Part shown: positions 59,130 to 63,986 of the stretch, in pieces | How the letters are laid out: the number at the start of each line of letters is the position of its first letter | Numbering within the stretch: the stretch's first letter is position 1 | Assembly: GCF_003264115.1 (NCBI RefSeq) | Contig: NZ_CP021912.1 | Coordinates: 806,001 to 870,000 of the forward strand | Direction: 5' to 3' | Length of the DNA: 64,000 bases | Source of the DNA: Erythrobacter sp. KY5 | Lineage (GTDB): Bacteria; Pseudomonadota; Alphaproteobacteria; Sphingomonadales; Sphingomonadaceae | The notes under the pieces: model-generated | What the model was told of the DNA's origin: nothing | Databases searched by the model: none | What the model saw: only the letters and a program-made list of their open reading frames with translations | Translations under genes and position numbers: made by a program

Positions 59130-59633
59130 ATGCAGGTTCGCTACGCCCTTCTCGCTGTTCTTCCCGCATTCGCCCTGACGGCGTGCGAAGAGGAAGCGGG
59201 CGAGCCCGAGGTCGAAGTCGTCGATTTGGAAGGCTCGCCGGACGATCCCGCGCCGCTTCCCCCCGATTCGCCGCTTCAGCCTGAACCCGAGGCCGAAGGC
59301 GTCACCCCGATGGCAGAGCGCGTCGCGACGATCGGAGTTCTGAACAAGCGCAACAATGTAAGCCAGGATCTGGAACTGAGCCCCGGCGACAATGCCGAAG
59401 TGGGGCCGGTCATCGTGCGTCTGGAAGCGTGCGAGCGCACCGCGCCTTATGAATTCCCGCAGGAAACCGGCGCATTCGTTCAGGTCGACGTGCTTGAGCG
59501 CGGAGCGAGCGAACATGCCCGCATCTTTTCCGGCTGGCTGTTCCGCGAAAACCCGAGCCTCAACGTGGTCGAGCACCCGATCTACGATGTGTGGGTCAAG
59601 GATTGCGCGATGAGTTTTCCGGGCGACGAATAG
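59130..59633 (+). CDS. DUF2155 lipoprotein
   Basis: A 167-residue protein with a lipoprotein signal (LPAFALTAC), an acidic Pro/Glu-rich linker (~25-60) and the DUF2155 domain with VATIGVLNKRNNVSQDLELSPGD and IFSGWLFRENPSLNVVEHPIYDVWVKDC. The family is found almost only in Alphaproteobacteria and its function is unknown. Its 3' end overlaps the convergent aat gene by 52 bp. Confidence 0.9.
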   Translation: MQVRYALLAVLPAFALTACEEEAGEPEVEVVDLEGSPDDPAPLPPDSPLQPEPEAEGVTPMAERVATIGVLNKRNNVSQDLELSPGDNAEVGPVIVRLEACERTAPYEFPQETGAFVQVDVLERGASEHARIFSGWLFRENPSLNVVEHPIYDVWVKDCAMSFPGDE

Positions 59634-60301
59634 TCGGGACTGTACGGGTCGCCGTGGGCGAACCGCTGATACGTCGCCTCAAGCGCCAGATCGGGAACAC
59701 CGCGCGCTTTCTCGACAAGGGTGAGATACTGCTTCTGAGGCATCTCGACCGCCCCCATCGAGGCGAGATGGTCGGTCATGAACTGACAGTCGAGCAACTG
59801 ATATCCCGCCTCGCGCAGCATCGCGACGAGCCAGCACAGCGCGACCTTGCTGGCGTTGCTGACAAGGCTGAACATGCTCTCGCCGCAGAAGACGCGGTCG
59901 AAAGAGACGCCATAAAGGCCGCCCACCAGCCGCTTCTCCCCATCCTCGCCGGTTTCCCAGCATTCGAGCGAATGGGCGTGTCCGGCGCGGTGAAGCCCGG
60001 TGTAGCTTGCGACGATGCGTTCGCTAATCCAGCTTTCGGGATGGCCCGGACGCGGCGCGGCGCAGGCGCGCATCACGTCGGTGAACGCCTCGTTGTGAGT
60101 CACCTCGAAACGGTCTGAGCGAAGCACCTTGCGCAAGCTCTTCGAGACGTGGAGGCCGCCCAGCGGTATGATCGCCCGGTCGCGCGGCTCGACCCAGAAG
60201 ATGTCCTGGTCCTCGCGCTTGTCGGCCATCGGAAAGATGCCGCTGCGATAGGCAAGCAGCAGCGTCTCAACCGGGATTGGGGCGCGAAGTGGCGAGTGCA
60301 T
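59582..60301 (-). CDS. aat: Leucyl/phenylalanyl-tRNA-protein transferase
   Basis: A 239-residue Aat that adds Leu or Phe to N-terminal Lys/Arg residues, marking proteins for ClpS-ClpAP in the N-end rule pathway. Motifs: AYRSGIFPMADKREDQDIFWVEPRDRAIIPL, the SECWETGEDGEKRLVGGLYGVSFDRVFCGESMFS block and the LDCQFMTDHLASMGAVEM segment. It starts at the ATG at 60301 and overlaps DUF2155 by 52 bp at its end. Confidence 0.94.
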   Translation of the reverse strand: MHSPLRAPIPVETLLLAYRSGIFPMADKREDQDIFWVEPRDRAIIPLGGLHVSKSLRKVLRSDRFEVTHNEAFTDVMRACAAPRPGHPESWISERIVASYTGLHRAGHAHSLECWETGEDGEKRLVGGLYGVSFDRVFCGESMFSLVSNASKVALCWLVAMLREAGYQLLDCQFMTDHLASMGAVEMPQKQYLTLVEKARGVPDLALEATYQRFAHGDPYSPDYSSPGKLIAQSLTHTS

Positions 60302-60447: not shown

Positions 60448-60523
60448 AGGGGTGTAGCTCAGCTGGTAGAGCATCGGTCTCCAAAACCGAGGGCCACGGG
60501 TTCGAATCCTGTCACCCCTGCCA
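60448..60523 (+). tRNA. tRNA-Trp(CCA)
   Basis: A 76-nt tRNA: acceptor AGGGGTG/CACCCCT, D arm GTAGCTCAGCTGGTAGAGCA, anticodon loop CTCCAAA with CCA anticodon, T arm GGTTCGAATCC, discriminator G and encoded CCA tail. In many bacteria it directly precedes secE; here secE lies 2.6 kb downstream. Confidence 0.96.
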
Positions 60524-60691: not shown

Positions 60692-60781
60692 TCCGCTCAG
60701 GTTTGCGCCAGACGAACCGTGCTTTTTGGGCGCTGAGTTGAGGGGCGTGATCCGACCCCCTCGCGTTCAGGGAGGACGACC

Positions 60782-60931
60782 ATGAGCCAGTACAGCTTCC
60801 GCTCTTCGAAACCCGATCACTGGGTAAGCCCGCGCCCGCATTCCGATCCCAGCCTGCGCTCGCTAGCCTATGGCCCGGTGCAATCGATGCACGAGCCAAG
60901 CTGGCTTGAAAAGATCCTCGGCTGGTACTGA
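60782..60931 (+). CDS. 49-residue protein, first of a tandem paralogous pair
   Basis: A 49-residue basic protein from ATG 60782 with a strong ribosome site (AGGGAGG six bases upstream). The sequence has the core RSS-PD-W-SPRP, then D and R spaced through the centre, YG-V and M-EP, and a C-terminal W, L and G-rich hydrophobic end (WLEKILGWY). It is too small for most gene callers. Its paralogue follows at 61076. No signal peptide; the C-terminal hydrophobic stretch is short for a membrane segment. Family not recognised. Confidence 0.8.
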   Translation: MSQYSFRSSKPDHWVSPRPHSDPSLRSLAYGPVQSMHEPSWLEKILGWY

Positions 60932-61075
60932 GGCTCGGCACTGCCAATGGCTGCGATCCATGCGCTTCGGTAAGTCCGTTGTCGCAGCGGCTGTGTCACG
61001 AAACTGGAACAAATCGCTTCCTCGCGCTTTTCCCTATGCAATCGTGCAAACAAACTTTTCAAGGAGATCAATGCC

Positions 61076-61225
61076 ATGACCTCTGCGCCGATCCGGTCGA
61101 GCAATCCCGACAATTGGTCCAGCCCACGCCCCTACACCGACGCGGCAACCCGCCGTATCAAGTATGGCGCGGTGCGCCCGATGGAAGAGCCCGGGCTCTT
61201 CGCGCGGTGGTTTGGACGTCGTTGA
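61076..61225 (+). CDS. 49-residue protein, second of a tandem paralogous pair
   Basis: Same length as the first, from ATG 61076 with AAGGAGA eight bases upstream. About 20 of 49 residues are identical to the paralogue at 60782, including RSS, PD, W, SPRP, D, R, YG, V, M, EP and a late G, with an end RWFGRR instead of GWY. The two proteins have the same order of conserved blocks and no insertions, which argues for constraint at protein level. A bidirectional terminator follows. Confidence 0.8.
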   Translation: MTSAPIRSSNPDNWSSPRPYTDAATRRIKYGAVRPMEEPGLFARWFGRR

Positions 61226-61250: not shown

Positions 61251-61290
61251 AACAAAAACGCGCCCGGTGATAAACCGGGCGCGTTTTGTT
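61251..61290. terminator. Bidirectional terminator (49-aa pair and symporter)
   Basis: CGCGCCCGG (61259-61267) pairs with CCGGGCGCG (61275-61283) around TGATAAA, with AAAA before and TTTT after extending the stem. It serves both the plus-strand small genes and the minus-strand AGCS gene whose stop is at 61316. Confidence 0.88.
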
Positions 61291-61315: not shown

Positions 61316-62833
61316 TCAGTATTCGTTCGGCTCTTCCGGCGTGTCTTCGGTGTGCGTGGGCCCTGCATCCTTTACGCCCTGCGCCAGCTTGAACACCACA
61401 CCCGACAGCAGCAGCAGCGCCACGAGGTTCGGCAAGGCCATTGCCGCGTTCGAGATGTCTCCCAGGCGCCAGACCAGTTCGGAAGGCTGTGCGGCTGCGA
61501 GGAAGATCACCACGCACCACAGAACACGCCACACCATGTGCAGCACCTTCTCGCCGCCCCGGGTCGAACCGGGCGTGCGGTCATAGATGAAGGTGATCGC
61601 GCGCTCGCCGTAATAGCTCCAGGTGAGCAGCGTGGTGAACACGAACAGGATCAGCGCGACGCTGGCAATCAGCGTGCCGATGGCGATGCCTGCGATCTCG
61701 GTCGGGAATGCCGCCGCGAACGCGCCGCTCGTCATCTCGAAACCGACCCGGTCCGATTGCCATGCATAGCTCACGGCTTCGGTGCCTGCGGTGAAGTCGC
61801 CGCGAACGGTGAGGATCACCAGCGCCGTCATCGTGCAGATCACGATCGTGTCGATGAAGGTGCCGAGCATCGCCATGCGACCTTGCTGTTCGGGATCGTT
61901 GGTCTGCGCAACTGCGTGCGCGATGGCGGTCGAACCCTGTCCTGCCTCGTTCGAGAACAGGCCACGCGCGACACCGGCACGCAGGGCCATGATCATCGCG
62001 GCACCAGCAAATCCGCCAGCCGCCGCTGCCGGATTGAACGCGCTGTAAACGATCAGGTAAAGCGTACCGGGCAGCTCTGAGAAATTGAGGATCAGAGCGA
62101 TGATCGCCATGATGATATAGGCAGCCATCATGAACGGAATGACCTTTTCGGCAACGCCGCCGATCGACTTGATCCCGCCGATGATGACGACGAAGACGAG
62201 GATAGCGACGATCAGCCCGCCGAGCCATTCCTCGATCCCGAACAGTTCCTGAAGGCCGTCGGCCACCGCGTTCGCCTGGATCGAATTGCCCGTCACCAGC
62301 GCCGAGAAAAGCGTGCCGATACAAAAAACGATGGCGAGCCATGTCCACTTCTTCCCAAGGCCCATCATGATATAGGTCATCGGACCGCCGCGCAGGACAC
62401 CATCACTGGTGCGCTCACGATAACGAATGGCGAGTGAGCCTTCGGCAAAGGCCAGCGCCATGCCGAACAGGGCGGTGATCCACATCCAGAAGATCGCACC
62501 GGGACCGCCCAGCGCAATCGCGGTGGCGACGCCGGCAAGGTTACCCGTGCCGACCTGGCCCGAAAGCGCGGTGGAAAGCGCGGCAAAGGGTGAGATTTCC
62601 CCGTCGCCTTCGCCCTTGCGGCCCGCGAAGAGCCCCTTGAACGCGGCCCCAAGATTGCGAAGCGGGTAGAATTTGAGCCCGATCATGATCCACAGGCCAA
62701 TGCCCAGGAGCAGGATCGTCATCGGCGGGAAGGGCAGCAGCTCTTCCCCGTTCCATGTGCCTCCCCAGATGAAATCCGAAACATTGGTAATCGGCGCGAT
62801 CCAGGCTTCTGCGCCCGATACGTCTGCAGCCAT
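61316..62833 (-). CDS. Alanine/glycine:cation symporter (AGCS family)
   Basis: A 505-residue sodium/alanine symporter with about ten helices. Signature segments are SGQVGTGNLAGVATAIALGGPGAIFWMWITALFGM and the highly conserved NEAGQGSTAIAHA, in which the Gln and Gly face the substrate site. The C-terminal tail is short and acidic. It imports alanine or glycine at the inner membrane. It stands alone on the minus strand between the 49-aa genes and secE. Confidence 0.94.
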   Translation of the reverse strand: MAADVSGAEAWIAPITNVSDFIWGGTWNGEELLPFPPMTILLLGIGLWIMIGLKFYPLRNLGAAFKGLFAGRKGEGDGEISPFAALSTALSGQVGTGNLAGVATAIALGGPGAIFWMWITALFGMALAFAEGSLAIRYRERTSDGVLRGGPMTYIMMGLGKKWTWLAIVFCIGTLFSALVTGNSIQANAVADGLQELFGIEEWLGGLIVAILVFVVIIGGIKSIGGVAEKVIPFMMAAYIIMAIIALILNFSELPGTLYLIVYSAFNPAAAAGGFAGAAMIMALRAGVARGLFSNEAGQGSTAIAHAVAQTNDPEQQGRMAMLGTFIDTIVICTMTALVILTVRGDFTAGTEAVSYAWQSDRVGFEMTSGAFAAAFPTEIAGIAIGTLIASVALILFVFTTLLTWSYYGERAITFIYDRTPGSTRGGEKVLHMVWRVLWCVVIFLAAAQPSELVWRLGDISNAAMALPNLVALLLLSGVVFKLAQGVKDAGPTHTEDTPEEPNEY

Positions 62834-63449: not shown

Positions 63450-63986
63450 ATGTCACGCTGGTACATCATCCACGCCTATTCGGGTTTCGAAAACAAGGTG
63501 AAGGAAGCCATCATTGCCGAGGCTGACCGTCTGGGCCTGTCCGAAGGCGTCGAGGAAATCGAAGTCCCGACCGAAACCGTGACCGAAGTAAAGCGCGGCA
63601 AAAAGGTCCAGGTCGAGCGCAAGTTCATGCCCGGCTACGTTCTCGCCAAGCTGCGCATGAACGACGACATCTATCACCTCGTGAAGAACACGCCGAAGGT
63701 CACCGGCTTCCTTGGCAACAACAACAAGCCGCAGCCGATTTCCGAGCGAGAGGCCGCACGCTATTTCGGCGGTGTCGAGGAAGCGAAAGCCGCGCCCAAG
63801 ACCCAGGTCAGCGTCGACTATGAAATCGGCGACCAGGTCAAGGTGCTCGACGGTCCGTTCGCCAGCTTCAACGGTGTGGTCGAGGAACTCGACTTCGACA
63901 AGGCGAAGGTCAAGGTTTCGGTCTCGATCTTTGGCCGCGCGACCCCGGTCGAGCTCGACTTCGAACAGGTTGAACTGGTCAAGTAA
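63450..63986 (+). CDS. nusG: Transcription termination/antitermination protein NusG
   Basis: A 178-residue NusG with an N-terminal NGN domain starting MSRWYIIHAYSGFENKVKEAI and containing KFMPGYVLAKL, a linker, and a C-terminal KOW domain with IGDQVKVLDGPFASFNGVVEELD. It binds RNA polymerase and modulates elongation. AAGGA precedes the ATG. It follows secE in the canonical order; the ribosomal protein genes that normally follow would lie past the window edge. Confidence 0.95.
   Translation: MSRWYIIHAYSGFENKVKEAIIAEADRLGLSEGVEEIEVPTETVTEVKRGKKVQVERKFMPGYVLAKLRMNDDIYHLVKNTPKVTGFLGNNNKPQPISEREAARYFGGVEEAKAAPKTQVSVDYEIGDQVKVLDGPFASFNGVVEELDFDKAKVKVSVSIFGRATPVELDFEQVELVK

Follow-up and report, generated by a model that had tools for sequence, protein, structure and literature searches.

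Results

Two 49-residue genes lie between tRNA-Trp and agcS

The window, by which we mean the whole 64,000-nucleotide stretch of DNA that was analyzed, covers positions 806001-870000 of a 3.31-Mb single-contig genome. Near its end lie two short genes on the plus strand, gene A (60782..60931) and gene B (61076..61225), each of which starts with ATG and encodes 49 residues. Gene A is preceded by the Shine-Dalgarno sequence GGAGG (60771..60775, plus strand), 6 nt before the ATG, and gene B by AAGGAG (61061..61066, plus strand), 9 nt before its own. Upstream of the pair are aat, encoding leucyl/phenylalanyl-tRNA-protein transferase (59582..60301, minus strand), and tRNA-Trp(CCA) (60448..60523, plus strand), which is the usual upstream neighbor of a family gene. 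Downstream are agcS, encoding a sodium:alanine symporter (61316..62833, minus strand), and, past it, nusG (63450..63986, plus strand); aat, agcS, and nusG are conserved flanks. The tandem pair after tRNA-Trp, with a strong ribosome site before each gene, is thus present as the preliminary description had it, and its estimate of about 20 identical residues in 49 without gaps agrees with our count (20/49). Because B, used as the query against the own genome, matched A (E 9.4e-9), the likeness of the two proteins is not due to chance. The same description gave the two genes a shared bidirectional terminator. A terminator-like hairpin of 14 pairs does lie at 61255..61287, called on the minus strand, a T-rich tail also being present on the plus strand, and from its sequence it could terminate in either direction; its position between B and the convergent agcS, however, makes it common to B and agcS, not specifically to A and B.

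Changes within the family are concentrated at third codon positions

In 79 close pairs, changes at codon positions 1, 2, and 3 numbered 322, 242, and 1084, and the median dN/dS was 0.11. The protein-level constraint that had been proposed is therefore borne out, with a ratio far below the value near one that had been named as contrary evidence. Compared with the nearest sibling genome, A gave a dN of 0.017 and a dS of 0.70 (dN/dS 0.025), and B a dN of 0.084 and a dS of 1.31 (dN/dS 0.064). Between A and B themselves dS is about 2.8 and synonymous sites are saturated, which renders their mutual dN/dS uninformative. Although the ORFs are short and GC-rich DNA is full of overlapping ORFs, the prevalence of third- over second-position changes, a dN/dS of about 0.1, the near-constant length, the Shine-Dalgarno sites, and an Rfam search in which nothing except tRNA scored above gathering refute the reading of A and B as chance ORFs or as a conserved RNA, to which we assign a negligible probability. 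We conclude that A and B are real genes.

A and B belong to a lineage-specific small-protein family

A profile built from 33 homologues found four family members in the own genome by full-length HMM match: A (1.2e-24), B (1.2e-25), paralogue C (1.2e-25; genome positions 1805574-1805717, minus strand), and the divergent paralogue D (7.6e-16; 2772872-2773030, minus strand). Profile searches placed members in 83 of 100 genomes of the same genus and in 142/398 genomes and 38/96 genera of the same GTDB family. The homologues therefore extend far outside the strain, a check that had been named beforehand. Hosts in the Erythrobacteraceae include Erythrobacter, Qipengyuania, Tsuneonella, Croceibacterium, Aurantiacibacter, Citromicrobium, and others, and further hosts are a few Novosphingobium, Blastomonas, and Croceicoccus. 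In 385 genomes sampled across the class, no convincing member was found outside the GTDB family among the best 18 candidates scored per genome, a depth at which remote members could escape. Eight weak matches elsewhere in the class were inspected by eye and judged to be chance.

Almost all members are 47-54 residues long and carry a Shine-Dalgarno site. The near-invariant residues are M1, S8, S9, P11, D12, W14, P17, D22, R26, G31, P35, M36, P39, and R44; B has all of them, and A differs at P35 (S) and R44 (K). Searches of Pfam, NCBIfam, PHROG, and PDB returned no family match to the 49-residue proteins, and we found no description of the family in the published open-access literature. Together with the 146 distinct proteins collected, these results uphold the proposal of an undescribed small-protein family. 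We conclude that A and B belong to a previously unnamed, lineage-specific family of about 49 residues. The family itself is new, but its kind, that of the lineage-specific stress gene, is an ordinary one. The family is compact and clearly defined, has a conserved promoter, occurs in most Erythrobacter genomes searched, and lends itself readily to deletion in cultured strains; its alignments would suffice for a Pfam or NCBIfam entry. A mobile-element origin was also considered and was rejected for want of phage or plasmid copies, the phage and plasmid collections giving no tblastn match to the family.

Two old subfamilies meet at one locus

The 198 family-HMM matches in the fetched loci reduced to 146 distinct proteins, from which we built a tree of 49 columns in which many forks are unresolved. 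A falls in a nine-row clade (support 100/98) and B in a six-row clade (support 95/86). Given these separate supported clades, A and B represent two old subfamilies meeting at one locus, and a recent tandem duplication is rejected. Among the loci examined, the pair occurs only in the window genome and its sibling, and reflects either an old tandem duplication with loss or a later arrival.

The usual gene order is NDUFA12, DUF2155, aat (minus), tRNA-Trp, the family gene, agcS (minus), nusG, rplK, and rplA, the last two recognized by eye from sequence. At 85 member loci, some of them counted twice, tRNA-Trp lies on the same strand at most 1.5 kb upstream. Many genomes have DNA inserted between the tRNA and the family gene, and in these the promoter element keeps its place next to the gene. 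In several genomes 1-4 kb of other DNA separates the two (L076, L081, L092, L101, L072, L078, and L244), so that the 3′ side of tRNA-Trp looks like an insertion site. A second subfamily lies after tRNA-Asn, between nadK and secA. Family genes thus recur directly 3′ of a same-strand tRNA, mostly tRNA-Trp, with tRNA-Asn in the second subfamily and tRNA-Thr in one genome (tRNA-adjoining members at L237, L238, L240, L243, L124, L126, L104, L183, L187, and L197). A fourth, divergent subfamily (ERPTIISSGPDxxGRTVCFGDExSRRARYGRIRPM; L234 4873-5031, and L245-L249, L253, and L254) is of the D type, which always follows an lldD-like FMN dehydrogenase gene and is without GGAAC.

Most members carry an EcfG-type promoter

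EcfG is the alphaproteobacterial general-stress sigma factor. The own genome has a phyR-nepR-ecfG locus at 3.24 Mb, with NepR above the cut-off at two places. Of 97 distinct regions upstream of the family genes, 79 have GGAAC at a distance of 55-110 nt from the ATG; shuffled sequences gave 6.7 on average and never more than 14. These counts are not independent, because the homologues are related. In most members GGAAC-N17-[C/G][A/G]TT lies 55-75 nt ahead of the start codon. When the regions are aligned on GGAAC, T occupies two fixed downstream positions in 77/79 and 71/79, and the spacer to [CG][AG]TT is N17 in 57 and N16 in 16, other lengths being rare. The reverse strand had GGAAC-N17-NNTT in 0/152, and upstream regions of neighbor genes at the same loci had the N16/17 pattern in 2/241. 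Across the own genome, GGAAC-N16/17-CGTT was not enriched (41 matches versus 112 for a reversed-pattern control); the sequence by itself is therefore not diagnostic, and it is position and conservation that carry the argument. The promoter and the two further paralogues, C and D, go beyond the preliminary description.

Published promoters allow some latitude around this form. The general EcfG consensus is GGAAC-N16-17-C/GGTT (PMC12148442); S. granuli has GGAAC-N16-CGTT with CATT, GGTT, and TGTT variants (PMC7083833), and S. melonis has GGAAC-N17-20-GTT, with several N17 examples and one CTTT (PMC6599016). Before EcfG-dependent genes, therefore, N17 spacers and CATT, GGTT, TGTT, and CTTT variants of the –10 element do occur (PMC6599016, PMC7083833, PMC12148442). 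Judged from sequence, the family promoter form is the one used by EcfG. In related genomes, 28 of 30 nepR genes have GGAAC-N16-CGTT or TGTT, mostly CGTT, and the family thus differs in its spacer, mostly 17 where the nepR promoters of the same clade have 16. This difference would be expected if another ECF sigma factor read the GGAAC promoter, in which case the genes would answer a specific stress and not the general stress response. Against this, the –10 variants and N16-17 spacers of the family fit the published Sphingomonadales EcfG promoters (PMC6599016, PMC7083833, PMC12148442), the B orthologues of E. ani and E. rubeus have N16, and an ecfG-like gene adjoins paralogue C; we consider another ECF factor unlikely. 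Calibration of the spacer with unrelated genes of the fetched loci gave few sites only. Transcription of the family is very probably driven by EcfG, and since most members carry this type of switch, they are probably stress proteins.

The two genes of the window differ in this respect. Gene B has a candidate EcfG-type promoter, GGAAC-N17-TTTT (61006..61031, plus strand), with a consensus –35 and an off-consensus –10 element. The sibling has GGAAC-N17-CTTT at its B gene, and the orthologues in E. ani and E. rubeus (L116 and L121) have GGAAC-N16-GGTT. With some reservation, we expect B to be transcribed by EcfG. At the place where other members have their GGAAC promoter, gene A has a conserved block (GCTCAGGTTTGCGCCAGACGAACCGTGC; 60695..60722, plus strand), identified by alignment with the sibling and the A clade, and the –35 box is lost. 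The A clade is mostly without GGAAC and keeps the block GCTCAGsTTyGCGCCAGACGAACCGTGC at the same place (including L179, L176, L190, and L198). Control of A by EcfG is accordingly doubtful on promoter sequence, and the conserved block suggests a different regulator for A. Among the upstream regions examined, those of C, D, and the tRNA-Asn type also have no GGAAC at the usual place; EcfG control is thus not universal in the family.

In the own genome and in its sibling, an ecfG-like sigma gene lies convergent to paralogue C (L233 4612-5373 and 5569-5718; L236). This sigma gene is 50% identical to the main ecfG, which lies beside nepR, and has its own upstream GGAAC-N16-CGTT.

The proteins are short and mostly basic

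The family has a median pI of 10.9 and a charge of +3.3; the gene A product is nearly neutral (charge +0.3, pI 8.2). The layout of the family proteins comprises an N-terminal RSSxPDxWxxPRP, a conserved Y/HGxIxPMxEP turn, and a C-terminal FLARLF. The AlphaFold (AF2) model is weak (mean pLDDT 76, pTM 0.34) and shows short helices at 23-30 and 41-46 with an extended N-terminal half; a Foldseek search with this model gave no fold match. The C-terminal helical moment is barely higher than in shuffles (0.41 versus 0.37), a small excess that lends poor support to membrane docking. Some tandem copies include degenerate members whose N-terminal half has drifted but whose C-terminal half (R...YGxIRPMHEPxxxERLL) is retained, a hint that the protein works through its C-terminal part.

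Discussion

Taking promoter, conservation, and protein properties together, we favor, with moderate confidence, the explanation that A and B are members of a small, lineage-specific, mostly basic family of general-stress proteins with EcfG-type promoter control. Under stress, PhyR would free EcfG from NepR, EcfG would read the GGAAC-N16/17-NNTT promoter just upstream in most members, and the family mRNA would be translated from its strong Shine-Dalgarno site. The product would have an extended N-terminal half, followed by a short helix at about 23-30, a turn, and then a second short helix in the C-terminal part (FLARLF). As a small stress adaptor it might attach by this last helix to the inner membrane or to another protein. 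Docking of this kind is a tentative proposal.

Two other roles deserve consideration. E. coli Sra/RpsV is a small basic protein of the 30S subunit in stationary phase, and the family proteins, likewise small, mostly basic (median pI and charge as above), and probably stress-induced, could be ribosome-associated in the same manner. Many genomes place the gene beside tRNA-Trp and the nusG-rplK-rplA cluster, as this role might lead one to expect. However, the resemblance to Sra is one of kind only, without established sequence similarity; no known ribosomal factor matches in sequence, the neighborhoods of the paralogues differ, and the gene A product is almost neutral. We give a ribosomal role only an outside chance.

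Alternatively, the proteins could act as NepR does, as feedback regulators binding EcfG, NepR, or PhyR. NepR (PF18557) is likewise small, alphaproteobacterial, and tied to the general stress response, and a proline-containing loop connects its helices; the family has a similar layout of helix, proline loop, and helix; in two genomes, moreover, paralogue C is convergent with the ecfG-like gene. Yet that adjacency is confined to the species of the window and its nearest sibling, NepR is acidic whereas the family is mostly basic, and the family lacks the WADGL...EPLPDSF motif. Homology to NepR, prompted by the LR...F spacing, was rejected, as the profile comparison did no better than shuffled controls (hhalign probability 0.3%) and there was no Pfam match. 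We regard such a regulator as improbable. More speculative still, the family may consist of stress adaptors that feed back on the stress pathway, as the place of paralogue C next to a second ecfG might suggest, B having kept its EcfG promoter and A having swapped it for another conserved element.

Under the general-stress reading that we prefer, the closest parallels are the EcfG regulon genes without known function of S. melonis Fr1 and Sphingopyxis granuli TFA. These likewise have a GGAAC –35 element, a spacer of 16-17 nt, and an NNTT –10 element, and their promoters usually lie no more than about 100 nt from the start codon, as in the family. In contrast to the EcfG regulon genes of Sphingomonadales, the family gave convincing homologues only in its own GTDB family among the candidates scored across the class, and its regulon membership is read from sequence.

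A weak match to the C terminus of FlgH, the flagellar L-ring protein, was seen for the C-terminal half of 5/38 members (best E 0.012 in NCBIfam, 0.49 in PDB); it is short and insignificant, and FlgH itself is far larger than the family proteins. In B, the FlgH-like stretch comprises residues 31-47 (window 61166-61216).
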